Below are positions 2,090-28,213 of a stretch of 34,814 nucleotides of DNA, piece after piece. The DNA is from Alcanivorax sp. (lineage in GTDB: Bacteria > Pseudomonadota > Gammaproteobacteria > Pseudomonadales > Alcanivoracaceae), in assembly GCA_022565695.1 (NCBI GenBank), contig JAIUME010000019.1, positions 1-34,814 on the forward strand. Direction: 5' to 3'. The notes below the pieces were generated by a model. The model did no database searches, had not been told where the DNA came from, and saw only the letters and a program-made list of their open reading frames with translations. Each line of letters opens with the position of its first letter. Position 1 is the first letter of the stretch. Position numbers and translations under genes: made by a program.

Positions 2090-2092
2090 GCC

Positions 2093-3841: not shown

Positions 3842-3877
3842 CCGTTGGCCTTACTGGTTTACATTTGCAGCCAACGG
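3842..3877 (-). promoter_or_regulatory. Inverted repeat in the cmk-rpsA gap (rpsA leader candidate)
   Basis: CCGTTGGC at 3842-3849 is complementary to GCCAACGG at 3870-3877, with a 20-nt A/T-richer loop. It lies in the 125-nt gap between the cmk stop and the rpsA start. It could shape the rpsA leader, where S1 autoregulation acts in E. coli, or act as a weak cmk 3' hairpin. No T-run follows. Confidence 0.35.
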
Positions 3878-3897
3878 GCAATCACCCGCAACGGTGT

Positions 3898-7948: not shown

Positions 7949-8068
7949 GTCGAATCGCTCCGCGACAACCCCGCGCCATAGGCAGGGCTCCCGAAAACAT
8001 CTGTTTGCGTCGGTATGGGCGGGACACTGCACGCACTCCCGCCCCAGAGATTATTGTGTCGCCAGCCG

Positions 8069-10333: not shown

Positions 10334-13015
10334 TTACTTGTCGTCGCTGTCTGTCTCGTCGTCAGAGGCTGCTGGCGTCTCGCCCTGCCCTGCGTCGTCA
10401 GCCTGCTGATCCGCAACAACCACTGCGCCGTCGACCGCATCGCCGACAACACCTTCCTCGTCGTCATCGACTTCCACGCCTTCCAGTTCCGGAATGCGTT
10501 CGACGCCCACCAGACGCTCATTGTCGCCAACGCGAATCAATGTCACACCCTGGGTGTTACGGCTGAGGGTGCTGACTTCATCCACCCGGGTCCGCACCAG
10601 CGTACCCTGGTTGGAAATCAGCATCAGGTCTTCGCCACCGAACACCTGTGTCGCGCCGACCAGCGCGCCGTTACGATCATTGACGATCATGCCGATCACG
10701 CCCTGGGTGCCGCGGCCCTTGGTGGGGAACTCGCTCACATCGGTGCGCTTGCCGTACCCTTTTTCTGATGCGGTCAGCACCTGGCCACCTTCTGCGGGCA
10801 CGATCAGGGCAATCACTTTCTGGCCTTCGGCAACGCGCATACCGCGCACACCGCGTGCGGTACGACCCATGGGTCGCACATCTTCCTCGCGGAAGCGCAC
10901 GGCCTTGCCGTTGTCCGCCACCAGCAGAATGTCTTCTTCGCCGCTGGTCATCGCCACGTTCACCAGGCTGTTGCCTTCATCCAGCTCGATGGCAATCAGG
11001 CCGTTGGAACGGGGGCGGCTGAAGGATTCCATGTCCACTTTCTTCACGGTGCCGTTGCTGGTGGCCATGAAGATGTATTTGCTGGTCATGTCCTTGGCCA
11101 TGGGCAGGATGGCGGTAATGCGCTCATCCGGCTGCAGGGCAGGAATCAGGTTGATGATCGGCTTGCCACGGGAACCACGTCCGCCCTGCGGCAGGGTAAA
11201 GACCCGCAACCAGTACACCTTGCCCGCGCTGGTAAAGCACAACAGCGTGTCGTGGGTGCCGGCAACCAGCAGATGTTCGACGTAATCCTCATCCTTCACC
11301 GCCGTGGCCGCCTTGCCACGCCCGCCACGTTTCTGTGCACGGTAGGTGTCGATGGGCTGCATCTTGGCGTAACCGCCATTGGACAATGTGACCACCACGG
11401 TTTCTTCGGCGATCAGGTCTTCCATGGACAGATCAAGATGGGAGGTCTGAATCACGGAACGGCGCGGATCGTTGTACTCTTCGCGAATGGCACGCAGCTC
11501 TTCACGAATCACTTCCAGCAGCCGCTCCGGGTCGGCCAGAATCCGGCCCAGTTCGGTAATCAGCTCAAGCAGCGCCTGATAATCCAGCACCAGCTTTTCC
11601 TGTTCCATGCCGGTCAGTTTCTGCAGACGCAGATCCAGAATCGCTTGCGCCTGATCCGGGGACAGGTGATAGAGGCCATCACGCAGGCCGTAGTGTTCAT
11701 CCAGCCCGTCCGGACGGCAGGCATCTGCGCCGCCAGCACGGTCCAGCATGGTCATGACTTCGCCAGGCGCCCAACCTTTAGCCACCAGCGCTTCTTTCGC
11801 TTCGGCACCCGAGGTGGATTTCTTGATCAAGGCGATCACGGCATCGATGTTCGCCAGTGCCACAGCCAGGCCTTCCAGCACATGGCCTTTTTCCCGTGCC
11901 TTGCGCAGTTCATACACCGTACGCCGGGTCACCACCTCGCGGCGGTGACGAATAAAGGCTTCCAGCATCTGCTTGAGGTTCAGCAGGCGCGGCTGGCCAT
12001 CCGCCAGCGCCACCATGTTGATCCCGAAGACGGTCTGCAACTGGGTCTGGGCATAGAGGTTATTGAGCACCACTTCCGCGTTCTCGCCACGGCGCAGTTC
12101 GATCACCACGCGCATGCCATCCTTGTCGGATTCGTCGCGCAGTTCGGTGATGCCTTCGATGCGTTTTTCTTTCACCAGCTCGGCGATCTTCTCGATCAGG
12201 CGAGCCTTGTTCAGCATGTAGGGCAGCTCGGTGATGATGATCGCCTGCTTGTTGCCCTTTTCCATGTCTTCGATATCGGCCCGGGCGCGCACATAAATGC
12301 GGCCACGGCCGGTACGGTAAGCCTGGATGATGCCCGCGCGGCCATTGATGATGCCGGCGGTGGGAAAATCGGGACCGTGGATGTATTCCATCAGGTCGTC
12401 GATGGTCAGGCTGTCGTCATCGATCAGCGCCAGGCAGCCGTCAATCACTTCGCCGAGATTGTGCGGCGGAATATTGGTGGCCATGCCCACGGCAATACCG
12501 GAGGAGCCGTTCACCAGCAGGTTCGGCACCCGGGTCGGCATCACTTCGGGGATTCGCTCGGTGCCGTCGTAGTTATCGACGAAATTCACCGTTTCCTTGT
12601 CGAGATCGGCCAGCAGGTCGTGGGCGATCTTGGACATGCGCACTTCGGTGTATCGCATGGCCGCAGCAGAATCGCCATCCACCGAACCGAAGTTGCCCTG
12701 CCCGTCCACCAGCATATAGCGCAGGGAAAACGGCTGCGCCATGCGGACAATGGTGTCGTAGACGGCGGAGTCACCGTGGGGATGGTATTTACCGATCACG
12801 TCACCGACGACACGGGCGGACTTCTTGTACGCCTTGTTCCAGTCGTTGTTGAGCTCGTGCATGGCGAACAGCACGCGACGGTGCACCGGCTTGAGGCCGT
12901 CACGCACGTCTGGCAACGCTCGCCCGACGATGACGCTCATGGCGTAATCCAGGTAGGACTGCTTCAGTTCGTCTTCGATGTTGACCGGGGTAACTTCTCT
13001 GGCGAGATCCGTCAT
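10334..13015 (-). CDS. gyrA: DNA gyrase subunit A
   Basis: GyrA cuts and rejoins DNA in the A2B2 gyrase that introduces negative supercoils. The 893-residue protein keeps E. coli numbering at the active site: Tyr122 in AMRYTEVRM. The quinolone-determining positions are Ser83 and Asp87 (HGDSAVYD), the usual susceptible residues. The GyrA-box QKRGGRGK marks the start of the C-terminal DNA-wrapping domain with its repeated beta-pinwheel blades. The C terminus is a long acidic tail of about 45 residues rich in D and E. ATG 13015 is preceded by AAGGA. It is divergent from mtaD across a 189-nt gap and followed by a hairpin. Confidence 0.98.
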
Positions 13016-13098
13016 GCTAATCCTTTATTATGGCGCTGGTACGAGGTGGTGCCTGTTTTTTGACCAGCCGGTGCACACCGACCGGTTTTAAGCCGGCA

Positions 13099-13107
13099 AT
13101 AATAGCA
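13099..13107 (-). promoter_or_regulatory. gyrA: Possible extended -10 promoter element for gyrA
   Basis: Read on the minus strand this is TGCTATTAT, an extended -10 (TGn plus TATTAT), about 85 nt before the gyrA ATG. No good -35 box is seen, which extended -10 promoters can tolerate. The call rests on motif and position alone. Confidence 0.35.
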
Positions 13108-13122
13108 CAACCCGAAGGCCCA

Positions 13123-13141
13123 GGTAGGGTCCTCCCCTACC
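13123..13141. promoter_or_regulatory. Small hairpin in the gyrA-mtaD divergent region
   Basis: GGTAGGG (13123-13129) pairs with CCCTACC (13135-13141) around a 5-nt loop. It lies between the two divergent starts, just upstream of a TATACT box (13163-13168) that could be the mtaD -10. It may be an operator or a DNA structural feature; nothing more can be said. Confidence 0.3.
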
Positions 13142-13204
13142 CAATCTTTCACACGGTTGCGCTATACTGCCGCCCCGGAGATCAACCAGGAATCAGGAGT
13201 GTCC

Positions 13205-14527
13205 ATGCCCCAAGCCCCGGCCCACGCCGATCTGATCATCCAGGCCAGCTGGATTGCCCCTGTGGAGGGCCCGGAACGCCTGTTGACGGACCATGCCATC
13301 GTCATCAGCGGTTCGCGCATCGTCGATATCCTGCCGTTTGCGGATATCGCTCGCCGCTGGCAGGCCACCGAGACGATCCGGCTGGACAAGCACCTCTTGA
13401 TGCCGGGGCTGATCAACGCGCACACCCATGCGGCCATGAACCTGTTCCGGGGCCTGGCGGATGATCTGCCGCTGATGACCTGGCTGGAGGAGCATATCTG
13501 GCCGGCAGAGGGCAAATGGATCAGCGAGCAGTTCGTGGCCGACGGCACGCGCCTGGCGGCGGCGGAAATGATCCGCAGCGGCACCACCTGCTTTGCCGAC
13601 ATGTACTTTTTCCCGGATGCCATCGCCCGTGTCGCCTCGGAGGCGGGCCTGCGCGCCAGCCTGTTCAGCCCGCTGCTGGATTTCCCGACGCCCATGGGCC
13701 AGGGGCCGGACGATTACCTGCGCCTGGCCACCCAGGCGGCAGATGCCTGGCGCCATGACCCGCTGATTTCCGTGGGTTTTGGCCCCCATGCGCCGTATAC
13801 CGTGTCCGACGAGCCCCTGCAGCGGGTCGCCATGCTGGCCGAAGAGCTGGATGCGCAGATCATGATGCATGTGCACGAGACGGCGGGCGAAGTGAGCATG
13901 GCGGAACAGGCCGGAGAGCGCCCGCTGGCGCGGCTGGCGCGGCTGGGGCTGCTGTCCCCGCGCCTGCTGGCAGTACATATGACGCAGCTCACAGACGACG
14001 AGATCGAGCAACTGCGGGACACGGGCACCCACGTGGTGCATTGCCCGGAATCCAACCTGAAACTCGCCAGCGGCTTCTGCCGGGTCGAAGCGCTGCGCCG
14101 CGCCGGGGTCAATGTGGCGCTGGGCACCGATGGTGCTGCCAGCAACAACGACCTGGACATGCTCGGCGAGCTGCGCACGGCGGCCCTGCTGGCCAAGGGC
14201 GTGGCCGGTGCCGCTGATGCGCTGCCGGCGGACGCGGCGCTGGCCATGGCCACGCTCAATGGCGCCCGGGCGCTGGGGCTGGAGCACCAGACCGGCTCCC
14301 TGGTGGCAGGCAAGCAGGCCGACATCATTGCCGTGGATCTGGGGGCGCTGGAAACCCGCCCCCTGTACGACCCCATCGCCCAGGTGGTGTATGCCGCCGG
14401 GCGTGAACAGGTGACTTACAGCTGGGTGGCTGGCCGCTGCCTGATGGCAGAGCGCCAGCTACTGACGCTCAACAGCGCACGCATTCTGCGCGATACCCAG
14501 CACTGGCAGGAGACGATCAATGGCTGA
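13205..14527 (+). CDS. mtaD: TRZ/ATZ-family amidohydrolase, probable 5'-methylthioadenosine deaminase
   Basis: This is a cytosolic metal-dependent deaminase of the amidohydrolase superfamily, 440 residues. Metal ligands are visible as HTHAAMN (His73, His75), the HVHET motif and the late LGTDGAASNN aspartate motif. The Pseudomonas gene in the same position (next to ubiG and mupP) was characterised as methylthioadenosine deaminase, which makes methylthioinosine in the methionine salvage route. I transfer that role by synteny; related enzymes deaminate S-adenosylhomocysteine or guanine-like bases. ATG 13205 follows AGGAG at a good distance. A TATACT box sits at 13163-13168. The stop overlaps ubiG by 8 nt, so it leads a tight four-gene operon. 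Confidence 0.88.
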   Translation: MPQAPAHADLIIQASWIAPVEGPERLLTDHAIVISGSRIVDILPFADIARRWQATETIRLDKHLLMPGLINAHTHAAMNLFRGLADDLPLMTWLEEHIWPAEGKWISEQFVADGTRLAAAEMIRSGTTCFADMYFFPDAIARVASEAGLRASLFSPLLDFPTPMGQGPDDYLRLATQAADAWRHDPLISVGFGPHAPYTVSDEPLQRVAMLAEELDAQIMMHVHETAGEVSMAEQAGERPLARLARLGLLSPRLLAVHMTQLTDDEIEQLRDTGTHVVHCPESNLKLASGFCRVEALRRAGVNVALGTDGAASNNDLDMLGELRTAALLAKGVAGAADALPADAALAMATLNGARALGLEHQTGSLVAGKQADIIAVDLGALETRPLYDPIAQVVYAAGREQVTYSWVAGRCLMAERQLLTLNSARILRDTQHWQETING

Positions 14528-16876: not shown

Positions 16877-18076
16877 ATGATGAAACGGATTGCAGTATGG
16901 GGGTTGGGGCTGTGCCTGATGTTCAGCGCGGCGCTGGTTCAGGGTTCGCAACGCCAGACAGGGCCTGTGCTCACGGACGAACAGAAACAGGCGCTTCAGC
17001 AGTTGGCACCGGGCGTCGAGATCACGCCGGAGCTGATCGAGCTGATGCAGGACATCACCTATAACCCGGACATGAGCATCGACGCACGCTTGCGCGCCAT
17101 CGGCCGTCTGTCCGGGCTGGATCGCCTGCCGGAAGACCAGCGCATGTCCACCACCATCTGCATCTGGGACCCGGCCGGGCGCGCTGGTCCGATTTTCACC
17201 GCAGCCGAAGAGCAGCGCATCCGCGCGGCGGAATATGGCCTGCAGATCAATATGGTGCCCTACACCAACGAAAGCGTGATGGTGGACGAGTTACTCAGCG
17301 CACGTTGCGACGCGGCACTGATGACCGGCCTGCGGGCGCGCCAGTTCAACAAGTTCACCGGCACGGTGGACGCCATAGGCGCCCTGCCGACGGATGAGCA
17401 CATGCGCATTCTTCTGGAAGTGCTCAAGCATCCGCGCAACGCCGGCCGCATGGTCGATGGCGAATACGTGGTGCTGGGTGTGTTCCCGGCGGGCGCGGCG
17501 CACATTTTTGTCAATGATCGTGAGATCAACACCCTCGGCAAGGCCGCTGGCAAGCGTGTGGTGGTGCTGGACTACGACCCGATGCAGGCACAGATGGTGG
17601 CCGGTCTCGGCGCCACGCCGGTGCAAGCAGATATCACCCGGGCGCCGGGCATGTTCAACAACGGTGTGGTGGACGTGCTGGCAGCACCGCTGGTGGCCTA
17701 TGAAGCGCTGGAGCTGTATCGCGGGCTGGACCCGGATGGCGGCATTATCGATTACCCGCTGACTCAGCTGTCCATGCAGCTGATCGGGCGGCGGGCAAAA
17801 TTCCCCAACGAAATTGCGCAACTGATTCGCGAGGCCACCCACGAAGCCTATGACGACATCATGGCTTTCCTGAACCGGGAAGCGGAGCGGGTGCCGGCAA
17901 AATGGTGGATCAACATCCCTGAAAAGGATCGCCAGGAATACGAGGTGATGATGGAGGATGCGCGGGTGGAATTGCGCAACCTCGGTTACTACCACGGCGA
18001 CATGCTGACGCTGCAGCGGCGAATCCGGTGCCGTCTGGAACCGGATCGCAGTGAGTGTGCAGAGCCGCGCGAGTAA
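16877..18076 (+). CDS. Periplasmic solute-binding protein 1 (DUF6091-like, TRAP-associated)
   Basis: The 399-residue protein has a signal peptide (residues 1-23, cut near VQG-SQ) and a mature domain that looks like a TRAP-type ligand-binding protein. It resembles the family I remember as DUF6091, putative solute-binding protein; that label is from memory. It is one of three paralogues here (with 20872-22065 and 24777-25793). Shared landmarks are CIWD near 95, RCDAALMTG near 144, TGLRAR, FNNGVVDVL, ELYRG, and a C-terminal motif with Cys385 and Cys394. The four conserved cysteines suggest two disulfides. Residues about 31-90 form a helical N-terminal extension absent from the third paralogue. 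AGGGAG lies 4-7 nt before the two adjacent ATGs (16877 and 16880). The stop is 3 nt from the convergent acylase stop. The ligand is unknown. Confidence 0.8.
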   Translation: MMKRIAVWGLGLCLMFSAALVQGSQRQTGPVLTDEQKQALQQLAPGVEITPELIELMQDITYNPDMSIDARLRAIGRLSGLDRLPEDQRMSTTICIWDPAGRAGPIFTAAEEQRIRAAEYGLQINMVPYTNESVMVDELLSARCDAALMTGLRARQFNKFTGTVDAIGALPTDEHMRILLEVLKHPRNAGRMVDGEYVVLGVFPAGAAHIFVNDREINTLGKAAGKRVVVLDYDPMQAQMVAGLGATPVQADITRAPGMFNNGVVDVLAAPLVAYEALELYRGLDPDGGIIDYPLTQLSMQLIGRRAKFPNEIAQLIREATHEAYDDIMAFLNREAERVPAKWWINIPEKDRQEYEVMMEDARVELRNLGYYHGDMLTLQRRIRCRLEPDRSECAEPRE

Positions 18077-18079
18077 CGC

Positions 18080-20626
18080 TCAGGGCGCCGTTGCCCGCAA
18101 GCGCAACGTTTGCAGCGCCGGGTCTGCATTGATCTCGGCGTCTGCATACGGGAACCGAATCCAGGCCTTGTCGGCATATGCCTCGGTCATGTTGCGGAAG
18201 AACGGCGAGGCCGGATCGGTGGATTGGGAATAGGTCACAAACCCTTCCGCCACCGGCATGCCCTGCTCGTCCCAGGTTACCGTCTGGATATAGCTGTTGC
18301 CGAAGGTGACCGCGTAACCCTGTTCTGTCAGCGCCCCTCGCGAGCTGGCAATGGTAAACGACCCTTCAAACCCTTCCCCGCCGAATACCGGAATACGCTC
18401 CTCATCGGTGCCCGAACCATGAATGCCGGAGAACTGGATATCCCCCATGGGCGCATCCAGGGCAAAACCGGAATCTATGGCGGTCTGCACGCCATCGGCG
18501 AAGGCCAGCTCCACCAGCGGGCTCAGGGGGTTCAGCCCGGCCGGCGTGTTCACCGGGTCATTGGCATTGAATGGCGTCAGCCACATACCTGGCAGTTCCA
18601 GCGGCAACGGATTGATGCCGCGCCAGAACTCGCGCCAGATATGGCCGCCGCGGGCGTCCAGGTTGTGGGTGCCGTCCCATTCGGCGAGCACGGCACAGGC
18701 CTCTGCCACTTCCACCGGCCCGCTGGTGCCGAGCAGGGGTAACGGCACCTGGCAATAGGTCGAGAGAATGGTGTCGCGGGCGAGCCGCTCGGTCATCAGG
18801 CTGCTGTCGAGCACGATGTCCTGCAGCACCGGCATATCAAAGGTGGTGCCGGGGCGGCCGTCGCTGCCGTCGAGGCGATCCTGGATGTGTCGTATGCACT
18901 GGCGGGTGCGCAGGGAGCGCGCTGATTCCTCATCGCCGATGATGGCGGCAAAACCGGTCAGGGGCTCTTCGGGGTGGGTGAGCCAGTAGCTGTCGTTGCA
19001 GTTATGCACCCAGTCGCTGCGGGTCAGGCTCGGCAGGTTGCCGGGGCCGAAAATGCCGGGCGCCGGGGCGTCGTCATCCGTATCCCAGGCGCAGGACGCA
19101 CGGCTGCCATCGAGAATCGGCACACCGGGCTGCAGCAATGCGAACACCGGCGTCAGTACCGTGGCGCAACTGAGGACCTTGCTGTCGGGCACATTGGGCA
19201 CCACGGTCACATCACCATAGTAGGCCGGTTTGCCCGGGCCGGTGGCGATGGTATTGACCCAGGGCGTGCCGAGCACGCTGGCATGCAGGTCCACGAATTC
19301 CTCAAAGCTCTGGGCACGGTTCCAGCGGAAAAACTGGTTCAGCAGGCGGTCATTCTCGGCGTTGGCGTCACGCAGGGTATAAGCCTTGAGCGGTGACCAG
19401 GACAGGATCGGGATACCGGACACCTCGAACTCCAGCATCGGCCCGTAGTGGGAATGGTACAGCGTGCGCTGTTCCTGCCGCACACTGCCATCCTGCTCCA
19501 GCACATCGATGGTGATATCGCGGGCTTCCATATCAATGAATTCGCCATCGAAGAGGTACCGGGTCGGGTCCAGCGGATCGAGGGTCAGCTCGTAGAAGCT
19601 GAACCGGAATGCCGTGGACACGGTGTGGCTCCAGGCAAACTTGTCGTTGAAGCCGATCAGCACGGCAGGCAGGCCGATCAGCGCGGCGCCCATGATCTCG
19701 ATGCGTTCGTCTGGCGGCCCCACCTGCAGATGGGTCATGTAAAGCCGCTCGGTCTTCTCCCAGGGGAAATGGGGATTGCCGAACAGGATCGACTCGCCGT
19801 TCTCTGTGGTGTCTCCGGCCAGCGCATACATGTTGCTGCCGAACGGCAGCTCGTTACTGAGCGGAAACGGCAGCGGCACAGGCAACAGGCCACTGACACC
19901 GTCCACCACCCCGCCAACCAGATCGGTGAGCTGATCTATGATCTCCTGCGGGTCGAGCGGCAACGGCAACTCACCCAGCAAATCTGGCGGCGCCGCATTG
20001 GCGACGCCATCCACGAAGACCGAGGAACTGGCCAGCACCGCCAGGCGGAAGTAACGGCGGTACATATCCTCTTCTTCAAGGGCCAATAGCCAGTCGGCAT
20101 CGCGGCAGGCCAGGTGCCGGCCACTGTGCTGGCCGTCGAGAATTTCCTGGCGGTAGCGATTGAAGCCATCGACAAAGCCCCGGGAGGCCTCCAGCACTTC
20201 CTGATCACTGCTGTCGCGCAGGGGCGCTATGGCCTCATCGGTGGCCAGGCTGCGCCAGAAGAAATCCGCCTCGATATTGCTGGCGACTGCGCCGTTGGCG
20301 GGAATGGTGTAGGTGCCCTCGCCGCCCAGATAGCGGGCGCGCAGGCCCCGAATCGTCAGCGTGTCTTCCGCCAGCAGACACAGGTTGTCTTCCGCCTGGG
20401 CGTAGCCGTAGCCGTAACCCATGCTGGCAAAGTCTGCTGCGGTGATATGGGGTATGCCCTCGCCGGTGCGGCGGATGGTGACATCGTAGTCTGTCGCTGG
20501 CGGCGGCACGTCAGGATCGATACCTGGGCCTGGCGCGCGCAGGTTGCTGTCGCCGCCGCAGGCGGCCAGTAGCAGTGTGCCGGTCAGCAGCGTGCCGACC
20601 AAAAGAAACTGTGCATTATTATTCAT
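18080..20626 (-). CDS. Lipoprotein penicillin/acyl-homoserine-lactone acylase family enzyme
   Basis: This is an Ntn-hydrolase precursor of 848 residues that should mature by self-cleavage. The likely nucleophile is Ser264 in FGSNMYAL (codon 19835-19837); residues after it give GNPHFPW and WSHTVSTAFR, patterns of the AHL/aculeacin acylase branch (PvdQ-like). The N terminus is a lipoprotein signal with lipobox LAAC (Cys23), so it is probably anchored to the outer membrane instead of free in the periplasm. Such enzymes hydrolyse amide bonds of N-acyl compounds; the substrate is not readable from sequence. A Pro/Leu-rich stretch precedes the cleavage site. ATG 20626 follows CGGGA; a GTG eight codons upstream is less likely. 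It is divergent from the second binding protein and tail-to-tail with the first. Confidence 0.85.
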   Translation of the reverse strand: MNNNAQFLLVGTLLTGTLLLAACGGDSNLRAPGPGIDPDVPPPATDYDVTIRRTGEGIPHITAADFASMGYGYGYAQAEDNLCLLAEDTLTIRGLRARYLGGEGTYTIPANGAVASNIEADFFWRSLATDEAIAPLRDSSDQEVLEASRGFVDGFNRYRQEILDGQHSGRHLACRDADWLLALEEEDMYRRYFRLAVLASSSVFVDGVANAAPPDLLGELPLPLDPQEIIDQLTDLVGGVVDGVSGLLPVPLPFPLSNELPFGSNMYALAGDTTENGESILFGNPHFPWEKTERLYMTHLQVGPPDERIEIMGAALIGLPAVLIGFNDKFAWSHTVSTAFRFSFYELTLDPLDPTRYLFDGEFIDMEARDITIDVLEQDGSVRQEQRTLYHSHYGPMLEFEVSGIPILSWSPLKAYTLRDANAENDRLLNQFFRWNRAQSFEEFVDLHASVLGTPWVNTIATGPGKPAYYGDVTVVPNVPDSKVLSCATVLTPVFALLQPGVPILDGSRASCAWDTDDDAPAPGIFGPGNLPSLTRSDWVHNCNDSYWLTHPEEPLTGFAAIIGDEESARSLRTRQCIRHIQDRLDGSDGRPGTTFDMPVLQDIVLDSSLMTERLARDTILSTYCQVPLPLLGTSGPVEVAEACAVLAEWDGTHNLDARGGHIWREFWRGINPLPLELPGMWLTPFNANDPVNTPAGLNPLSPLVELAFADGVQTAIDSGFALDAPMGDIQFSGIHGSGTDEERIPVFGGEGFEGSFTIASSRGALTEQGYAVTFGNSYIQTVTWDEQGMPVAEGFVTYSQSTDPASPFFRNMTEAYADKAWIRFPYADAEINADPALQTLRLRATAP

Positions 20627-20871
20627 GGTTGTGTCCCGGATAATGACCACTGAACTCAGTTCTACTCCGGCACAGCCGGGTCCGGGAGTGGCTGGCTACG
20701 ATAAACCCTCAGGGCTTACAAAAATCCTAAACAAGCGTACCAGCGCCTGATCCGCCTGCCCGGGGGCTGATTGACTCCGCAGTCACCGCATACTTTCTGT
20801 CGGGTCATGTACGCCCTCTCGGCCCACTGCTAGAAAGAAGGCCATTACATTGCTCCGACCAGGACATGGAC

Positions 20872-22065
20872 ATGATGCGTATAACCAGAACAAGACATTC
20901 GCTACAGATGCTACTGACTGCCGCACTGATCAGCCTGCTGGGTATCAGTCAGGCTGCCGCCGTGGAGATGACCGACGCACAGCGGGAAGAGCTCAGCCGT
21001 CTCGCACCGGGTCTGACCATCACCAATGAGATGGCAGAGCAGTTACGGGCGATTGCCTACGACCGCTCGCTCCCGCTGGAACAGCGCGTCGCGGCGATGC
21101 GTCGCGTGTCCGGCTTCCCGGATGATGCCATGGTCAAACGTCGTATCTGCATCTGGGATATTGCCGGGCGTAACGGCCCCATCTATCAGGCGGCCCAGGA
21201 TCAACGGCTGCGCATTCTGGAATTCGGCGTCGATGTGGAATTGCTGCCCTACACCAATGAGGGTGTCATGGTGGAAGAACTGCATTCGGGCCGTTGCGAT
21301 GCTGCGCTGATGACCGGGCTGCGGGCGCGCCTGTTCAACCAGTTCACCGGCACCATTGATTCCGTCGGCGGCCTGCCAACAGATGAGCACATGCACGTAC
21401 TGCTGCAGGTGTTGGCTGATCCGCGCATGGCCGACAGGATGGTGAGCAACCGTTATGTGGTGATGGGTATTGCGCCGGCTGGCGGCGCCTATGTGTTCGT
21501 CAATGATCGTTCGATCAATTCACTGGCGCGCGCGGCGGGCAAGCGGGTGCCGGTGCTGGAGTATGACCCGACCCAGGCGCGCATGGTGTCGCAGATCGGC
21601 GCCACCCCCGTGGCGGCGGATCTGATCAGCGCGCCGAACATGTTCAATAATGGTGTGGTGGATGTGCTGCCGGCGCCGTTGATCGCCTATGAAATTCTGG
21701 AGCTGTATCGCGGCATGGGCGCCAATGGCGGTGTGATTGATTACCCGCTGGCACAGATCACCATGCAGTTGATCGGACGGGAAGACAAATTTCCGAATGA
21801 AATTGCACAACTGGTCCGGGAAGCCTTTTTTGAAGGCTATGAAGACATCATGGAGCAACTGAATACGGAAGCCGCCAAGGTGCCCGATCGCTGGTGGATC
21901 GCCATTCCTGATGAAGACAAACAGGAATACGAAACCATGATGCAGGATGCGCGGCTGCAACTGCGGGAAGAGGGCTATTACAGCGCCGAGATGTTGACAC
22001 TACAGCGGCGCATTCGCTGCCGGATGGACAACAACCGTGGCGAGTGCACCAATCCCGTAGAGTAA
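20872..22065 (+). CDS. Periplasmic solute-binding protein 2 (DUF6091-like paralogue)
   Basis: This close paralogue of the 16877-18076 product is roughly 60% identical by eye and has the same layout: signal peptide ending near SQAAA, helical N-terminal extension (TDAQREELSRLAPG onward), CIWD, RCDAALMTGLRAR, FNNGVVDVL, and the C-terminal pair of cysteines in RIRCRMDNNRGEC. Counted from ATG 20866, Cys95 and Cys144 fall at exactly the numbers seen in paralogue 1, and the total is also 399. The start at 20872 is preferred because AGGA (20861-20864) is then 7 nt away; 20866 and 20875 are alternatives. It has its own 245-nt divergent region with the acylase, so it is probably transcribed separately. 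The stop is 4 nt from the convergent kinase stop. Ligand unknown. Confidence 0.8.
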   Translation: MMRITRTRHSLQMLLTAALISLLGISQAAAVEMTDAQREELSRLAPGLTITNEMAEQLRAIAYDRSLPLEQRVAAMRRVSGFPDDAMVKRRICIWDIAGRNGPIYQAAQDQRLRILEFGVDVELLPYTNEGVMVEELHSGRCDAALMTGLRARLFNQFTGTIDSVGGLPTDEHMHVLLQVLADPRMADRMVSNRYVVMGIAPAGGAYVFVNDRSINSLARAAGKRVPVLEYDPTQARMVSQIGATPVAADLISAPNMFNNGVVDVLPAPLIAYEILELYRGMGANGGVIDYPLAQITMQLIGREDKFPNEIAQLVREAFFEGYEDIMEQLNTEAAKVPDRWWIAIPDEDKQEYETMMQDARLQLREEGYYSAEMLTLQRRIRCRMDNNRGECTNPVE

Positions 22066-22069
22066 AGGA

Positions 22070-23434
22070 TCAATGCAGCCGGTCGATGGGCGGGAAACCG
22101 TCCAGTCCACCGAACATGTCGACGCGGTTATCCGAAAACATATCCAGCTCTGGTGCCAGGGCCTGGATATAGCGGTCGAAATACAGGAACTGTTTCAACA
22201 GCAACGCGAATTCCCGTGGAAAACGAATGCCGTGCTGCTCGCCGATCTTGACGATATCCATGAGCAGGCGGTTGACCTCCCGCTCATTGCGGTTACCTTC
22301 AAGCAGGCTGGCAGGGTCGACATTTTCCAGGCGTGACTGAAAGCGCTCCAGATCTTTTGTGAGGGCATCCACGCTCACCGTCTCGCGGGTCATGCCGATC
22401 TGGATCATGGCTTCCGCCACCACGCGGTGGTCGCCGTTGCTGATGCCGTCCAGGAAGCGTGACATGGCCTCCCAGGTATTCTTGCGGATGCGCCCTACCA
22501 TACCGAAATCAATAAAGCCGATGCGGCCGTCATTGAGCAACATCAGGTTGCCGGCGTGCACATCGGCGTGGAAGAAGTCGCACAGCATGAGGCTGGAGAA
22601 CCAGGTGTTGAGGGCAGCGACCAGTGTGTCGGCCGGATCATCCACATGGCGACGCAGCACATCCAGATCGGTGAGCGGCACACCATGGAAGCGCTCCATG
22701 GTCAGCACTTTCTTTGTGCTCAGCTCCCGGTAGGGGCGCGGCGCCACGGCGCGGGTATTGCCGGTCAGCAGCAGGAATTCGTTGAAGCGCTCCAGGTTCT
22801 GGGCTTCCTTGAGAAAGTCACACTCCTCCAGCATGGAGCCCTGCAGTTCCTCAATCACGCCCGACACGGCAGAACGCGACAACCCCGGCGTCAGCATTTC
22901 GAAAATACGCGCCGCCACATAGAGAAAGTTGAAATCCGTCAGCAGCACCGTGCTGACACCGGGCTTCTGCACCTTGATCACCACATCCTCGCCGGTGTGC
23001 AGCCGTGCCGCATGCACCTGGGCGATGGATGCAGAGGCCAGCGGCGCCGGGTCCACATGGCTGTAGAGGGCACTCAGGGGCTTGCCCAGCTCGCTCTCGA
23101 CGGTTTCCCGGATATAGCGAAACGGCAGCGGCGGCGTGCGGTCCAGGCACTTCTGAAACTCTTCGACATAGGCTTCCGGAAACAGGGACGGCGAGCTGGC
23201 GATAAATTGACCAAGCTTGATGTAAGTCGTGCCCAGCGCTTCGACGGTCTCGCGGAGTAGCACTGGCGCCGGCGGACGATGGCCCAGCAGCCAACCCGCG
23301 CCCGCGCGGAGCAGCACAGCGCCGGTCTGCACCACCCGAAATCCGCCCCGGGCGGTGTCTCGGGCCAGGCTCAAACCCGCACGGCGAGCGGCCATCCGCT
23401 CGCGCATCTGCTCTACCTCAGTCTTTTTGCTCAT
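22070..23434 (-). CDS. ABC1/AarF/UbiB family atypical kinase
   Basis: The 454-residue protein belongs to the UbiB/ADCK family linked to ubiquinone synthesis and lipid handling. Family marks (numbered from ATG 23434): KLGQ at 73-76, the alanine-rich ASAS loop near 134-137 replacing a glycine loop, the VIKVQKP lysine at about 154, the E-x-D motif in EECDF, catalytic HADVHAGN near 289-296 and DFG at 309-311. All nucleotide-binding residues appear intact. It is not in a ubiE-ubiJ-ubiB operon, and no C-terminal pair of membrane helices is seen, so it is probably an additional ABC1 paralogue, not UbiB itself (inference). AGGTGA lies 9 nt before the ATG. It is divergent from the TatT-like gene and convergent with binding protein 2. 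Confidence 0.85.
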   Translation of the reverse strand: MSKKTEVEQMRERMAARRAGLSLARDTARGGFRVVQTGAVLLRAGAGWLLGHRPPAPVLLRETVEALGTTYIKLGQFIASSPSLFPEAYVEEFQKCLDRTPPLPFRYIRETVESELGKPLSALYSHVDPAPLASASIAQVHAARLHTGEDVVIKVQKPGVSTVLLTDFNFLYVAARIFEMLTPGLSRSAVSGVIEELQGSMLEECDFLKEAQNLERFNEFLLLTGNTRAVAPRPYRELSTKKVLTMERFHGVPLTDLDVLRRHVDDPADTLVAALNTWFSSLMLCDFFHADVHAGNLMLLNDGRIGFIDFGMVGRIRKNTWEAMSRFLDGISNGDHRVVAEAMIQIGMTRETVSVDALTKDLERFQSRLENVDPASLLEGNRNEREVNRLLMDIVKIGEQHGIRFPREFALLLKQFLYFDRYIQALAPELDMFSDNRVDMFGGLDGFPPIDRLH

Positions 23435-23539
23435 CAGCGCCAATCACCTTATGTTCGAATGGGTCAAAAGCTGGCATCACGGGAAATTCACGCTTGCCGA
23501 ACACCCTCTATGTATAGCTTACTATGCGGCTATAAGCGT

Positions 23540-23568
23540 TTGTAATTGCATACTTTGCTTTTTGTAAT
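23540..23568 (+). promoter_or_regulatory. Candidate sigma-70 promoter for the TatT-like gene
   Basis: TTGTAA (23540-23545) and TGTAAT (23563-23568) are separated by 17 nt and match the -35 and -10 consensus at 4/6 and 5/6. The region is clearly A/T-richer than the surrounding genes. Transcription would begin near 23575, leaving a leader of about 70 nt before ATG 23646. Confidence 0.45.
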
Positions 23569-23645
23569 CGGCGCTTGTGCCAATAATGACCGTTCGGTAC
23601 TGTTGCCGTCTTGGTGATCCAGAACAATAACATGGAGAACGCTAC

Positions 23646-24710
23646 ATGAAGTCTTCTTTTGAGACTCCGGGTGTGGCTGGCGTTGCTACGCCAGTAATGA
23701 AGAATCTGTTTGGCCGGGTCAGGCTGGCCGCCCTTGCGCTGACGGTTGTTGCCCTGCAGGGCTGCGGCATCATCTACAAGACCACCGGTGACGTGCTGAT
23801 CAGCTACGGCAGCAACGAGATGGTCCCCTATCTGCTCACCTATGACGATGTTGCCATGGGCTGCGCCACCGGCGAGTCCCTGACGCCCCTGCTGATGTCT
23901 TTCGAAGCCGTGGGCTCCAACCCCGACCGCCTCGCACCTCTGGTCTTCACCGTCGCAGCCAGCTGTACCGAAGCGCTGGCCACCGAGCAGGAACTCCGCT
24001 ACAGCCGCGCCCTCAAGGACGGCAATGTCAATGAGGCCCAGGATGCCCGCGCCCTGCAGAAGCGCTACCTGCGTGTCACAGCACAGCGTTACCACACGGC
24101 TTACCAGCGCGTGACAGCCCAGTACGGCGAAGCCGACAACGGTAAGTGCCCGCGTCTGCGCAAGGATTTCGATGAGCTGGTATGGATGGTCGGTCAGATC
24201 GCCGGTGTTCAGGCTGTCCTGAATGATGGCGCCTCTGATGCCTCACTGGGCATCCCGCGGGATATCGCGGCCAAGGTCGAGCGCGGCGCCGCCTGCCTGG
24301 ACAACGAAAAATGGTGGGGCGTGCCCAACGGGACACGCGCTGCACTGTGGAGCATCCTGCCCATGTTCGCGCCGGAAGGTGCTGACGCCTGGCAAGAGAT
24401 GGATCGCTCTGTGCGTCTCGGCTTCGAGCAAGGCGTACGGCTCCCCAGCGCCCTGGCAGCCATCGCCGCCCACAGCGTCGGTGACGAGCAGCGTGTACGC
24501 CGCGCCATTCGCGAGTTTGCCAATAACAATAACAACCTGGATCCGAACTACGCCATGCTGGATGCACTGGCTGAATTCCTGATCACGGGGGTATCCGACC
24601 GCATGTGGACTGAGGCGACAGGACGCCGCACACCGTTCAATGCGCTGGGTACATTCTGGGACGATGCAAGATCCTCACAGCCTGACTTCGACATTGATGA
24701 CCTGCTGTAA
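23646..24710 (+). CDS. Lipoprotein resembling TRAP transporter T-component (TatT)
   Basis: The 354-residue protein has a signal with a long basic n-region and lipobox ALQGC (Cys40), so it is a lipoprotein. The mature part is helical. The stretch from about residue 65 to 160 (EAQDARALQKRYLRVTAQRY and neighbours) looks like the TPR-type fold of TatT, the T-component that pairs with TRAP binding proteins in Treponema, where it forms a trimer presumed to load ligand. I recognise it by pattern and by its place directly before a binding protein and a TRAP permease, so the call is moderate. It could instead be an unrelated lineage-specific lipoprotein. GGAG lies 8 nt before ATG 23646; Met18 is an unlikely start because no ribosome site precedes it. 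It is 66 nt upstream of binding protein 3. Confidence 0.6.
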   Translation: MKSSFETPGVAGVATPVMKNLFGRVRLAALALTVVALQGCGIIYKTTGDVLISYGSNEMVPYLLTYDDVAMGCATGESLTPLLMSFEAVGSNPDRLAPLVFTVAASCTEALATEQELRYSRALKDGNVNEAQDARALQKRYLRVTAQRYHTAYQRVTAQYGEADNGKCPRLRKDFDELVWMVGQIAGVQAVLNDGASDASLGIPRDIAAKVERGAACLDNEKWWGVPNGTRAALWSILPMFAPEGADAWQEMDRSVRLGFEQGVRLPSALAAIAAHSVGDEQRVRRAIREFANNNNNLDPNYAMLDALAEFLITGVSDRMWTEATGRRTPFNALGTFWDDARSSQPDFDIDDLL

Positions 24711-24734
24711 TCTGAACATTAATAACGTGCTTGG

Positions 24735-24768
24735 CAGCACCCTCCTCCGGGTGCTGTCGATCAGGAGG
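24735..24768 (+). promoter_or_regulatory. Hairpin with anti-Shine-Dalgarno loop before binding protein 3
   Basis: CAGCACCC (24735-24742) pairs with GGGTGCTG (24749-24756) as an 8-bp perfect stem. The 6-nt loop TCCTCC contains CCTCC, which is complementary to GGAGG inside the AGGAGG ribosome site at 24763-24768, 8 nt before the ATG at 24777. An H-type pseudoknot or an alternative CCTCCT/AGGAGG hairpin could hide that site. No T-run follows, so it is not a terminator. Confidence 0.6.
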
Positions 24769-24776
24769 CAGTAACC

Positions 24777-25793
24777 ATGCGTTTTTCACGTTTTCTCTCC
24801 GTTGCTCTTGCTGCGCTCGCCCTGGGCTTCACCTCCCAGGCCAGTGCCAACACGCAGCTCCGTCTGTGTGTGTTCGACATCATTGGTACCTCCGGTGACA
24901 TCTTCAACCTGATGCGGGATTACCGCACCGCCGCTCTCGGAGAGGGTGTCGACTTCAGAATGCGTGCTTTCACCGATGAAAACATCGCTTATGAAGAGCT
25001 GACTGGCGGCCAGTGTGACGTGGCAGCCATCACCGGTATTCGTGGCCGTCAGCTGAACAGCTACACCGGCAGCCTGGACTCCATCGGTGCTGTGCCCAAC
25101 TACGATGCGCTGCGCATGGTGGCTCAGGTGCTGGCCAGCGAGAACCCGCGCATTACGCCGAACCTGCGTAACGGCCCCTATGAAGTCATCGGCATTGCGC
25201 CCATGGGTGCGGCATACCTGTTCGTGAAAGACCAGAGCATCAACAACGTCAACGCACTGGCGGGCAAGTCCATCGCCGTGATGGAATATGACGTGGCTCA
25301 GGGCCGCATGGCGTCCCGCGTCGGCATGTCGCCGGTGATGTCCGACATCACCAACTTCTCCGGCCGGTTCAACAACCACAGTGTCGACATCTGCTTTGCA
25401 CCCATGGCAGCCTATGGCGCACTGGAGCTGTATCGTGGCATGGGCGAGAACGGCGGCATCGTCGACTACACCCTCGGCCAGCTGACCATTCAGTTGATCG
25501 CCCGTCACGACAAGCTGCCAGAGGGCTTCGCCACCTGGTCACGCAAGTACATGTTTGAAGAAATCTACGATCGTGCGCAGGCCGTGGTCGACAACGCCTA
25601 CAGTGATGTCCGCGATGATCGCTGGATCCGCATCAGCGAAGAAGACACCCTCAACTACGACGAAATGATGCGCGATGCGCGGATCGACCTGACCCAGCAG
25701 GGCGTCTACAACGCTGACATGATGTCTCTGCTGCGCAACATCCGCTGCCGCCTGGATGCGTCGCGCGGCGAGTGTAGCGAAAGTCGGGAGTAA
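24777..25793 (+). CDS. Periplasmic solute-binding protein 3 (short DUF6091-like paralogue)
   Basis: The 338-residue protein has a clean signal peptide (cut near ASA-NT, residues 24-25) and then goes straight into the ligand-binding domain (LRLCVFDIIG). It lacks the helical extension of about 60 residues carried by the two other paralogues. It keeps the family landmarks TGIRGR, LELYRGMGENGG, the cysteines at 31, 80, 324 and 333, and the C-terminal motif NIRCRLDASRGEC. An extra Cys occurs in VDICFAP. Identity to paralogues 1 and 2 is lower, roughly 40% by eye. It has the strongest ribosome site of the three (AGGAGG at 24763-24768). Lying between the TatT-like gene and the TRAP permease, it is the most likely cognate receptor of that permease. 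Ligand unknown. Confidence 0.82.
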   Translation: MRFSRFLSVALAALALGFTSQASANTQLRLCVFDIIGTSGDIFNLMRDYRTAALGEGVDFRMRAFTDENIAYEELTGGQCDVAAITGIRGRQLNSYTGSLDSIGAVPNYDALRMVAQVLASENPRITPNLRNGPYEVIGIAPMGAAYLFVKDQSINNVNALAGKSIAVMEYDVAQGRMASRVGMSPVMSDITNFSGRFNNHSVDICFAPMAAYGALELYRGMGENGGIVDYTLGQLTIQLIARHDKLPEGFATWSRKYMFEEIYDRAQAVVDNAYSDVRDDRWIRISEEDTLNYDEMMRDARIDLTQQGVYNADMMSLLRNIRCRLDASRGECSESRE

Positions 25794-25818
25794 TACCGGT
25801 TCAGAAACAGTAATGATG

Positions 25819-25852
25819 CGGGGCCCCAGTGGCCCCGTATTGTTTGGTTTTA
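25819..25852 (+). terminator. Intrinsic terminator after binding protein 3
   Basis: CGGGGCC (25819-25825) and GGCCCCG (25831-25837) form a 7-bp GC stem around CCAGT, followed by the T-rich stretch TATTGTTTGGTTTTA. It lies 25 nt after the binding-protein stop and would separate it, fully or partly, from the permease gene 210 nt downstream. Confidence 0.75.
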
Positions 25853-25972
25853 GCCGCATATACACTTCAGAGACATGCAATTACCGAAAAGCTGCCTTGA
25901 ATGGCAGTTCAGCGGTAGGCAGATGGGCACAGGTCACATAGAATCAGCCTTTCGCTTGAGCAATGTGAAATT

Positions 25973-25996
25973 CCGGGCCGACAGTTTGGCGCCCGG
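25973..25996 (+). promoter_or_regulatory. Leader hairpin upstream of the TRAP permease
   Basis: CCGGGC (25973-25978) pairs with GCCCGG (25991-25996) around a 12-nt loop in the 210-nt stretch between the terminator and the permease ATG. It could lie in the 5' leader of the permease transcript. No convincing -35/-10 pair was found nearby. Confidence 0.3.
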
Positions 25997-26062
25997 GTCT
26001 TTCAAACCATCAGGTGTCCGGGGCAGATAACCGGCACTGTGATAACAACAACCGGGTGAACA

Positions 26063-28213
26063 ATGACTACAGCGTCGCCTTCATTCAAGATAGCCAATCG
26101 CTCTGTCGGCGAATGGATATCCTCTCTCCCCACTCTCATTATTCTTCTGATCACCATCTTCGTAGCCTCCGGTGAGATCATTCACTCTCAGCTGCTGCGC
26201 GTTGGTGAGAACACCTGGGAAGAATATTTCCTGCTGCGTGGCGCCGGTGTCATTGGTGAACCTACCTGCGAGCAGAACCCCGATATCGATGAGCAGGTGC
26301 GCCGCACTGTCATACAGCGAGAGGCCGAAGCGGCTGACGACCCGCTGGCAGGCATGTTCGGCACCGACATCGACGAGGACGCCATCCGACGCTCCATCGA
26401 GCGCTCGGTGCAGGTGTGTCAGGAGCGCTGGGCGCGCTTCGAGCGAGTAGAGGAGCGCGTGACACCCGGCGTGCGCGCCTTCCGCACCGTGGAGGTCGGT
26501 GTGTCGCGCATGATCACCGGCATTGGCGAGAGCAAGCGCACCCTGCTTGCCCTGCTGGTGCTGATCTGTGCGGCCACCGCCACCTTCAGTCGGCACCATA
26601 TCGCTATCCGCCCGGTGCGCAGTGTGCGCGACCACTATGTCTCCACCACCGCCCTGCTGGCGGCCAATACCATGCTGTTCGTGTCGTCGATCCAGTATCG
26701 CGAACGGCAGCTGATGAGTATTGCGGAGGGGATATCGGTCAGTCACTACAACCTGAACCTGATCTGGATTACCGGGTTCGGGATACTGGCGGCCATCAAT
26801 ATCTACCATCTGGCCAAGCGGCCGGCGGGACTGGAGGCCGGAGGCAACTACGGCAAGGCCCTGCTGACCATTCCGCTATATGGCTTCATGTCCCTGACTG
26901 CCGGCAGCCGCTTCATGCTGGATGGCTACTACCACGGCATGAGCGTGTACCTGGGCATGATGATGGAGCACTCCACGCTGTTCCTGAATCTGGCCCTGTA
27001 TATCTGGATCGGCATGATGCTCAAGCAGACCCGGATGGCACAGCTGGTGTTCAACGTGCTGCGCCCCTGGAACATGTCGCCTGAACTGCTGTGCTTCGTG
27101 GTGCTGCTGGTCACTGCGGTGCCCACCGCGTACACCGGTGCTTCCGGGATCTTCGTGATCGCGGCGGGCGCGGTGATCTACAGTGAGCTGATGCGCGCCG
27201 GGGCACGGCCGCAGATGGCACTGGCCACCACCGCGATGTCCGGCTCCATGGGTGTGGTATTGCGGCCCTGTCTGCTGGTGGTGATCATCGCCGCGCTGAA
27301 CAACCAGGTCACCACGACCGAGCTGTTCGGCTCCGGGGTGAAGATCTTCTTCCTGACTGCGTTCCTGTTCTTCATCTACTCGCAGTTCGCACGCAAGGAG
27401 CCCGCCCGTATCGCGCCCTTCCGTGAAGCGCTGCCGGAGAGCATCCGTCGTCTGAAGCCGCTGATCCCCTATGTGGTACTGATGGCCGTGGTCATCATGT
27501 TCTTCGGCCAGATTCTGGACCGCCGTCTGGACGAGTTCTCCGCGCCAATCATCCTGCCGGTGATCCTGCTGGTGATCCTGCTTTACGAATATGTCTTCTC
27601 CAAAAAGACAGCGGAAGCACTGGGACTGGATGCGGACAAGACCACGGGCAACGAAGCACGCCCGACCGGTTTTGAGCCCGCGCTGCGCAAGGCGACCAAT
27701 GAAACCACCGGCCACATCGGTGCCCTGCTGATGCTGATGGCACTGTCCGTGAGCGTGGGCGGTATCATCGAGCGGACCGGCCTGATGGAATCCATGCCGT
27801 CTGAATTCGCCTCTATCTGGATCGCTGCCGCCATTCTGGTTGTGACCCTGGTGGGCATCGGCATGATCATGGACCCGTACGGCGCTGTGATCCTGGTGAA
27901 TGCGACCATTGCCCAGGTGGCCTTTGCTGCCGGCATTGATCCACTGCACTTCTGGATGATCACGCTGGTGGCCTTCGAGCTGGGGTACCTGACGCCGCCC
28001 GTTGCACTAAACCACCTGCTTACCAGGCAGGTGGTTGGCGACGACGAGGTGGAGAAGTCCAAGCTCACTACCGGGTCCTTCTGGGATCGCTACGAGAAGT
28101 TCCTGCTGCCCATTGCAGTGATGCTCACGGCCCTGATAATCGTCGCATTCCTGCCGCTGGCCTGGGACGGACTGCACGAGTGGCTGTTCAAGAAGGTCGC
28201 GATAGGCGGTTAA
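26063..28213 (+). CDS. Fused TRAP transporter permease (DctQM-type)
   Basis: This 716-residue inner-membrane protein should couple sodium or proton flow to uptake of ligand delivered by the binding proteins. The C-terminal part (about 340-716) is DctM-like: YTGASGIFVIAAGAVIY, ATTAMSGSMGVVLRP, and later GMIMDPYGAVILVN and ELGYLTPPVALNHLL. The N-terminal part supplies the small DctQ-like helices. Helix 1 (about 22-40) and helix 2 (about 158-176) are separated by a hydrophilic loop of about 115 residues, probably periplasmic, with Cys69 and Cys119 and charged helical sequence. GGGTGA lies close to ATG 26063. A strong terminator follows at 28239. A 269-nt gap with its own hairpin precedes it, so it may also be expressed separately from binding protein 3. 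Confidence 0.88.
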   Translation: MTTASPSFKIANRSVGEWISSLPTLIILLITIFVASGEIIHSQLLRVGENTWEEYFLLRGAGVIGEPTCEQNPDIDEQVRRTVIQREAEAADDPLAGMFGTDIDEDAIRRSIERSVQVCQERWARFERVEERVTPGVRAFRTVEVGVSRMITGIGESKRTLLALLVLICAATATFSRHHIAIRPVRSVRDHYVSTTALLAANTMLFVSSIQYRERQLMSIAEGISVSHYNLNLIWITGFGILAAINIYHLAKRPAGLEAGGNYGKALLTIPLYGFMSLTAGSRFMLDGYYHGMSVYLGMMMEHSTLFLNLALYIWIGMMLKQTRMAQLVFNVLRPWNMSPELLCFVVLLVTAVPTAYTGASGIFVIAAGAVIYSELMRAGARPQMALATTAMSGSMGVVLRPCLLVVIIAALNNQVTTTELFGSGVKIFFLTAFLFFIYSQFARKEPARIAPFREALPESIRRLKPLIPYVVLMAVVIMFFGQILDRRLDEFSAPIILPVILLVILLYEYVFSKKTAEALGLDADKTTGNEARPTGFEPALRKATNETTGHIGALLMLMALSVSVGGIIERTGLMESMPSEFASIWIAAAILVVTLVGIGMIMDPYGAVILVNATIAQVAFAAGIDPLHFWMITLVAFELGYLTPPVALNHLLTRQVVGDDEVEKSKLTTGSFWDRYEKFLLPIAVMLTALIIVAFLPLAWDGLHEWLFKKVAIGG

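Follow-up and report, generated by a model that had tools for sequence, protein, structure and literature searches.

A TRAP-type locus in Alcanivorax sp. encoding three PF19582 receptors, a helical lipoprotein and one permease that several receptors may share

Results

Genes of the locus

The window, which is the whole stretch of 34,814 nucleotides that was analysed, contains the genes of three receptors (R1, R2 and R3), a lipoprotein (T) and a permease (M), all five of which are complete open frames in an ORF check (Table 1). The start of R2 was taken at 20866; the sequence-only reading had placed it at 20872, at an ATG that lies in frame two codons into this ORF. The order T-R-M is repeated in relatives and is also present on plasmid pHP-187 of Marinobacter adhaerens HP15. 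The gap between R3 and M measures about 270 bases and holds a terminator-like hairpin, which may possibly yield receptor in excess of permease. Hairpin-type sites number 14 in the region against 6.8 expected in the pattern scan.

Table 1. Positions of the genes and other features in the window.
Feature	Position	Strand	Evidence
R1, periplasmic receptor with N-terminal extension ahead of the receptor domain	16877..18076	+	PF19582, E 7.6e-79
PvdQ-like acylase, lipoprotein-like start judged by eye; membership not shown	18080..20650	-	Penicil_amidase, E 9e-105
R2, periplasmic receptor, R1 paralogue	20866..22065	+	PF19582, E 6.1e-77
ABC1/UbiB-like kinase	22070..23443	-	ABC1, E 3.6e-61
T, all-helical lipoprotein, TatT-like predicted fold	23646..24710	+	lipobox Cys40 at 23763-23765
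R3, operon receptor	24777..25793	+	PF19582, E 3.8e-76
Terminator-like hairpin in the R3-M gap, 14 pairs and a loop of 5	25812..25844	+	pattern scan only
M, fused DctQM-type TRAP permease, 716 aa	26063..28213	+	PF06808 DctM, E 7.3e-17
M residues 52-134, between membrane helices 1 and 2, presumed periplasmic	26216..26464	+	AF2 helices and hydropathy

The two opposite-strand genes that an earlier sequence-only reading had described as interleaved with the locus are an acylase and a kinase. The kinase is a recurring neighbour at Alcanivorax-like loci and is not considered part of the importer. The acylase scores under the cut-off of the PvdQ model. Its membership in the importer is not shown and is no more than a lead; the acylase was found in 2 of the 78 named loci. 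In genome G136 an acylase is also found close to a T-R pair (L087), and in G028 close to an M (L128).

The permease

M matches PF06808 with 61.7 bits (cut-off 23.8). Its AF2 model (pLDDT 83.3) retrieves IseQM (9pym, E 9.3e-12, 620 columns) in a Foldseek search, and SiaQM is also matched; over about 620 columns of the QM structures TMq is 0.46-0.49. On the basis of the model, M is predicted to have the TRAP permease fold, with the Q subunit that such a system should possess present as a fusion. The segment between the first two helices, counted from residue 51, is 77-105 residues long in 29 relatives. Of its two cysteines, C119 is present in 29/29 relatives and C69 in 28/29. This two-cysteine segment could serve as a common docking site for the receptors; docking data are lacking.

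The lipoprotein

The lipobox cysteine of T, Cys40, is invariant in all 27 family members. The AF2 model of T (pLDDT 89.4) resembles TatT: 3u64 is the fourth Foldseek hit (probability 0.99, TMt 0.55, E 0.19), and 3u64, 8g53 and 4di3_A occupy ranks 4, 6 and 8 with probabilities of 0.98-0.99. The corresponding E values of 0.19-0.28 are not significant, and three unrelated entries rank above TatT. No Pfam or NCBIfam family was found for T up to E 0.1, and none of the 27 family members matches TAtT (PF16811) at E values up to 1. Alignment of the T profile with the true TatT of the same genome (hhalign, probability 0.4) gives no match. Kinship of T and TatT in sequence is supported by neither Pfam, PDB profile search nor hhalign. 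The "TatT-like" label of this lipoprotein rests solely on the predicted fold.

The receptors

The Pfam profile search proposed in the sequence-only reading assigns R1, R2 and R3 to PF19582 (AdeT1_2; E 8e-79, 6e-77 and 4e-76), with scores of 256.9-265.8 bits where the cut-off is 27. They are paralogous, as that reading had held: identity is 58% between R1 and R2, 42% between R1 and R3 and 43% between R2 and R3. R1 and R2 carry N-terminal extensions, R3 none.

A DctP fold, taken as a criterion for a TRAP receptor, appears from profile comparisons to be met only remotely. Alignment with the genome's own DctP (hhalign) gave probability 92 and E 6e-7; SiaP and DctP entries in the PDB profile search gave E values of 0.016-0.056. 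With the DctP Pfam model, R1 scores under the cut-off and R2 and R3 give no match. The canonical TRAP arginine, which binds the ligand carboxylate (R147 of SiaP), is absent from the 37 receptors aligned, all of which have A, V, P, S, G or T in the column aligned to the 4pf8 arginine.

A receptor tree was calculated from 73 receptors of fetched loci, out of the 92 counted in the order survey (see below). R1 and R2 belong to a set of 22 rows that a well-supported branch separates from the rest, and no receptor of this set has a permease within 3 kb. The receptors nearest to R1 and R2 in the tree occupy the corresponding position in related genomes. The label "alone" was given to receptors with M more than 3 kb away and no T within 700 bases. 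This label requires nine changes on the tree, at least five of them by the starred branches. Such repeated origin of receptors away from M is what would be seen if the extra copies were duplication leftovers without a selected role. That explanation seems very improbable, given that the R1 and R2 relatives have stayed open genes at the matching place and that 37/37 receptors, whether from operons or orphans, share four invariant cysteines and three invariant arginines.

Copy number and distribution

The source genome encodes six PF19582 receptors, two T proteins and one permease of the M subfamily. Three of these receptors, including that of a second T-receptor pair, lie beyond the window; no second permease of the M subfamily was found in the genome.

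Surveys of the kind suggested in the sequence-only reading show R and M in identical genomes at three levels: order (26/145 genomes, in which T is likewise present), class (6/321) and phylum (8/349). T was not surveyed in class and phylum, and receptor counts at these levels are lower bounds, with at most five candidates scored per genome. Across the three surveys, which together have 31 distinct positive genomes, R was never found without M, nor M without R; paralogues without the permease, set beforehand as a refuting outcome, were not encountered at the genome level. The probability of this co-occurrence by chance is about 3e-29 if relatedness is ignored. Among relatives, the all-or-none pattern holds in genus g22 and family f36 for R, T and M, and in family f21 for R and M.

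The 26 positive order genomes have 92 receptor matches and 52 permease matches. For these counts split permeases were treated as one by manual merging of their second segments (eight cases), partial permease matches in G062 and G126 were counted as permeases, and a 21.9-bit fragment of one G101 receptor was left out. In 16 of the 26 genomes receptors outnumber permeases; 8 genomes have equal numbers of both and 2 have more permeases than receptors, and these ten weigh against a shared permease. Also to be weighed against it, two of the 31 positive genomes of the three surveys, G156 and G352, have as their only M match one with an in-frame stop, and that of G352 is partial as well. One receptor per permease, a usual but not strict feature of TRAP systems, is not met, as the excess in 16/26 genomes indicates. 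For 41 of the 92 receptors the closest such permease is more than 20 kb off or on a different contig, and G028 and G066, each a single contig, also have receptors far from the permease. Often M is accompanied by one receptor in the operon, with more receptors elsewhere, and the second refuting outcome, a dedicated receptor elsewhere, is not simply applicable.

In G035 the only M lies on a different contig from the T-R pair and from the other R. Three chromosome-sized Acinetobacter baumannii records each have one T, one M and five receptor places (a partial receptor match on an Acinetobacter pittii plasmid was left out), with no receptor within 6 kb of M in the two records examined. In one of them, NZ_CP104448, T and M are close together without R within 6 kb; the receptor places comprise a tandem of three (about 1.112-1.116 Mb), a fourth at 3.13 Mb and a fifth that was not located. 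Since no receptor is near M in G035 or NZ_CP104448, a distant receptor would have to serve M there.

These arrangements bear on the possibility that M is served by R3 alone, with the scattered paralogues sensing ligand, carrying or scavenging periplasmic lipid, or serving another transporter. The position of R1 and R2 in the set without a nearby permease, their N-terminal extensions, which R3 lacks, and the catabolic genes beside several orphans would fit such roles. The possibility is nonetheless unlikely, because receptors are never found without M in the 31 positive genomes and because G035 and NZ_CP104448 have no receptor near M. The sharing of one permease by several receptors, as first suggested, is supported by co-occurrence; physical sharing remains an inference.

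Discussion

Comparison with known systems

The closest counterpart is TPAT (TatT-TatP-TatQM; Tp0956-Tp0957 of Treponema pallidum), likewise encoded by three genes, for a helical lipoprotein, a receptor and a fused QM permease. The TPAT arrangement of a lipoprotein encoded beside receptor and QM is met here, the T model resembles TatT without a significant E value, and the likeness extends to receptors without the canonical TRAP arginine. Unlike TPAT, T lies outside the TAtT family by sequence, and the receptors belong to PF19582 and often occur in several copies per genome. The source genome also has a separate classical TPAT (L022; PF16811, E 7e-78, with DctP).

With DctPQM and SiaPQM TRAP systems the locus shares the predicted fold of M, which matches IseQM and SiaQM, and the remotely DctP-like receptors. 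It differs in its T component, its several receptors per permease, the lack of the canonical arginine and the stretch of roughly 80 residues that separates helices 1 and 2 of M; we know of no classical Q subunit with such a stretch. Receptors also exceed permeases in the TTT (TctABC) systems of Bordetella, which have orphan Bug receptors; TTT is, however, a separate transporter family, and to our knowledge its systems lack a T component. In PMC5812351, orphan Bug receptors of Bordetella are described as many and permeases as few.

AdeT1 and AdeT2 of A. baumannii belong to PF19582, to judge from the family name and three A. baumannii proteins. PMC6679007 labels AdeT an RND-type efflux pump with an earlier-shown role in aminoglycoside resistance, and on the naming in the Acinetobacter literature the AdeT family would be part of RND-type drug efflux. 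We find this scarcely credible for the proteins studied here. R1-R3 and the three A. baumannii relatives match the solute-binding family AdeT1_2 and contain no RND transporter domain in Pfam; they are proteins of 330-399 aa, remotely DctP-like, and co-occur with a TRAP permease, here alongside T.

Proposed mechanism and ligand

The locus probably encodes a TRAP importer of TPAT-like make-up in which one permease works with several receptors, although sharing in trans is inferred, there being no binding, docking or transport data. T, probably on the outer-membrane side, would collect a hydrophobic solute, as its TatT-like predicted fold and the published TatT suggest. It would pass the solute to a PF19582 receptor, either R3 or one of the five paralogues outside T-R3-M; the hand-over is inferred. 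Any of these receptors may then dock on the single M, which would take the solute in, presumably using an ion gradient as other TRAP systems do. If the receptors differ in ligand, as we infer, the substrate range would be widened by duplication of the receptor and not of the permease.

A hydrophobic ligand is likely, but unproven; both it and the T-receptor complex are inferred. The pore of TatT and the cleft of TatP are described as hydrophobic in PMC5812351. Wax-ester synthase occurs in 18 of the 26 positive order genomes against 41 of the other 119, the total of 59 including two weak matches under the family cut-off. This association is not corrected for phylogeny and is suggestive only. 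Of 131 proteins near orphan receptors, 5 matched Abhydrolase_1 and 4 acyl-CoA dehydrogenase; of 106 control proteins farther off, 2 matched Abhydrolase_1 and 2 thiolase; acyl-CoA dehydrogenase is not among the 25 families listed for the control. Lipid genes are hardly commoner near orphan receptors than in this control, and no enrichment is claimed because several of the near matches are orthologous.

Implications

We lean slightly towards regarding these components as a new family of receptor-modular TRAP importers, comprising PF19582 receptors, a T family without Pfam entry and a QM permease with an additional, conserved two-cysteine segment, in which dispersed receptors share one permease for different hydrophobic compounds. 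AdeT of Acinetobacter would then be a receptor for import and no efflux pump. The usual description of a TRAP transporter is that of a receptor and a permease dedicated to each other. Should a single permease serve dispersed receptors, gene adjacency would be a poor guide to TRAP specificity, and the rules of receptor-permease docking could be tested inside one genome. The "RND efflux pump" label of AdeT proteins is brought into question, and import offers a testable alternative to it in resistance surveys. The named relatives of M are mostly from Alcanivorax, Marinobacter and similar genera, which are hydrocarbon or lipid users. This distribution makes a route for greasy compounds possible, and the system may provide such bacteria with a passage for these compounds across the inner membrane.

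Gene content of the locus and its genome

The layout described by the sequence-only reading, in which three paralogous receptors, a TatT-like lipoprotein and one permease are interleaved with two opposite-strand genes, was borne out: positions 16877-28213 hold five plus-strand genes and two minus-strand genes, identified in Pfam/NCBIfam searches as a PvdQ-like acylase and an ABC1/UbiB-like kinase. A Pfam profile search placed all three paralogs (R1, R2 and R3) in one family, and their pairwise identities are 58% (R1/R2), 42% (R1/R3) and 43% (R2/R3). The hairpin between R3 and the permease, known from its pattern alone, suggests that permease expression may be lowered relative to the receptor.

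Features of the receptor-permease locus. R, PF19582 receptors; T, TatT-like lipoprotein; M, fused DctQM-type TRAP permease.
Feature	Position	Strand	Assignment
R1	16877-18076	+	PF19582 (AdeT1_2)
R2	20866-22065	+	PF19582 (AdeT1_2)
T	23646-24710	+	no family matched in Pfam and NCBIfam profile searches
R3	24777-25793	+	PF19582 (AdeT1_2)
Terminator-like hairpin	25812-25844		between R3 and M; pattern scan only
M	26063-28213	+	716 aa; DctM family PF06808, E 7e-17

The source genome (3.53 Mb, 22 contigs; the window is contig C19) encodes six PF19582 receptors, three on C19 and single copies on C3, C9 and C14, and two T genes, on C19 and C3, that are 62% identical to each other. The only permease of this kind found is M itself, which is 97% identical to a permease from Alcanivorax limicola. 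Two further DctM proteins, on C1 and C4, exceed the Pfam cut-off and are distant from M in sequence; three additional matches fall below it. The C4 protein is part of a classical TPAT (G000:C4:87000-95000, 1515-5244) comprising a TAtT lipoprotein (PF16811, E 7e-78), a DctP receptor and the DctM permease. Contig C3 carries a T-R pair without a permease of the M kind, and the C9 receptor is neighbored by two lipase-like hydrolases, a lipase chaperone and an acyl-CoA dehydrogenase. A JetD-like (Wadjet) protein and a large coiled-coil protein, possibly SMC-like, are encoded a few kb downstream of the C3 pair (G000:C3:154000-168000, 10557-13993).

Co-occurrence of receptors, T and M

Consistent co-occurrence had been named as support for a single system, and in all three surveys R and M were found in the same genomes. 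Among 145 genomes of the order (M threshold E up to 1e-30), M, PF19582 and T are each present in 26, and these are the identical 26; the hypergeometric chance of this is 3e-29 when relatedness is ignored. R and M likewise share the same 6 of 321 genomes of the class (M threshold E up to 1e-20) and the same 8 of 349 of the phylum. The samples overlap and yield 31 distinct positive genomes, none of which has R alone or M alone. The sole M match carries one in-frame stop in G156 and in G352, where it is also partial. The three parts appear, short of a formal phylogenetic test, to have been gained or lost together, because related genomes have all three or none: in genus g22 three genomes have the set (G060, G093 and G121) and G019 lacks it, and in family f36 G035 and G101 have it and G072 and G129 do not. 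In family f21, where T was not surveyed, G624 has R and M and the other listed members have neither.

Receptor surplus and dispersal

The 26 positive genomes of the order contain 92 receptor versus 52 permease matches; receptors are in excess in 16 genomes, the two are equal in number in 8, and permeases are in excess in 2. The distance from receptor to permease is at most 3 kb for 38 of the 92 and 3-20 kb for 13; the remaining 41 are more distant or sit on a different contig. Broken contigs swell this last class, but G028 and G066, each a single contig, have distant receptors too. Eleven permease matches, including fragments and matches on short contigs, lack a receptor on their contig within 20 kb. 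The single M of G035 shares no contig with that genome's T-R pair or remaining receptor.

In 78 named loci, some cut by contig ends, T is present in 73 and R in 69. The genes are most often ordered T-R-M (21) or R-T-M (13), and Alcanivorax-like loci include R-R-UbiB-T-R-M forms. A complete T-R-M is carried by plasmid pHP-187 of Marinobacter adhaerens HP15 (NC_017507.1; L223, 2732-6947); the unit can therefore be plasmid-borne.

A tree of 73 receptors, built by a quick method, places R1 and R2 in a set of 22 with no permease within 3 kb of any member, and R3 among operon receptors. Receptors away from the permease are inferred from this tree to have arisen several times, because the label 'alone' requires nine changes, at least five by the starred branches. 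Delivery of ligands by several receptors to one common M is itself an inference. That many receptors share few permeases, inferred here for TRAP, was already proposed for TTT/Bug systems (accessible part of PMC5812351); no paper describing it for TRAP was found in the open-licence literature, subscription papers being mostly uncovered.

Structural predictions

Modeled with AlphaFold (pLDDT 83.3), M has structural matches to IseQM (E 9.3e-12) and SiaQM. The segment between its first two membrane helices spans 77-105 residues across 29 relatives and has conserved cysteines (C69 in 28, C119 in all 29). It is presumed to be periplasmic, and any part in docking is conjecture. T is modeled as all-helical (pLDDT 89.4). 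Its top three structural matches are unrelated proteins with TM-scores of at most 0.27; TatT 3u64, TPAT protein 8g53 and the TatT in 4di3 rank 4, 6 and 8, with probabilities of 0.98-0.99 yet E values of 0.19-0.28. On this model T is predicted to be TatT-like, and no more than that. The receptors are remotely DctP-like (hhalign probability 92, E 6e-7; PDB profile E 0.016), and in none of 37 does an arginine align with the TRAP arginine of 4pf8.

Possible ligand

The 78 named relatives, which are the best 78 by similarity and so biased, include 20 Alcanivorax, 16 Marinobacter, 5 Alloalcanivorax, 5 Thalassolituus, 4 Oleispira and 3 Oleiphilus, genera known to use oil or lipids; the genus is missing for 16. 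Orphan receptors, those away from M, adjoin lipases and an acyl-CoA dehydrogenase (L020), a P450 (L139) and GMC/FMO oxidoreductases (L140), and in L092 (G028:C1:4420000-4435000, 4737-8572) an alpha/beta hydrolase, a FadL/TodX-type outer-membrane protein and the receptor are successive on one strand. These four were selected from a larger set (131 proteins), which contrasts only slightly with control genes taken from farther away. Wax-ester synthase occurs in 18 of 26 positive versus 41 of 119 negative genomes. A lone M (G035:C45:17000-35000) has two START/polyketide-cyclase-type genes alongside (6296-7647), and in A. baumannii a STRING link joins a START protein to AdeT (PMC6679007, in the part accessible). 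According to the accessible part of a review (PMC5812351), TPATs of free-living proteobacteria are mostly from hydrocarbon degraders and the TatT pore is hydrophobic. A hydrophobic ligand seems reasonably probable; the compound is unidentified.

Acinetobacter and AdeT

In a tblastn search of the plasmid collection PLSDB, four Acinetobacter baumannii records have M in one place, T in one place and receptors in four or five places each. Three of the four (NZ_CP104448.1, NZ_CP077849.1 and NZ_CP064203.1) measure 3.7-4.1 Mb and, by size, seem to be chromosomes deposited as plasmids. In NZ_CP104448, only about 1 kb separates T from M, and no receptor is encoded within 6 kb of them. Three receptors, whose proteins match AdeT1_2, form a tandem array at about 1.112-1.116 Mb and a further one maps to 3.13 Mb; the fifth place was not located. 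In CP040042, too, receptors are absent from the 6 kb around M; an acyl-CoA dehydrogenase is near T/M, and T and M are separated by a gene with a rhombosortase annotation (rrtA; CP040042.1 30878-45007, 5193-5759).

In the accessible part of PMC6679007, AdeT is described as an efflux pump of the RND type, with ABUW_0008, 0009, 0010 and 0394 given as AdeT proteins. No paper linking AdeT to TRAP was found in the open-licence literature, which leaves subscription papers mostly uncovered. The present data, which include none on resistance and have no bearing on the measured phenotypes, fit an import receptor better than an efflux pump.
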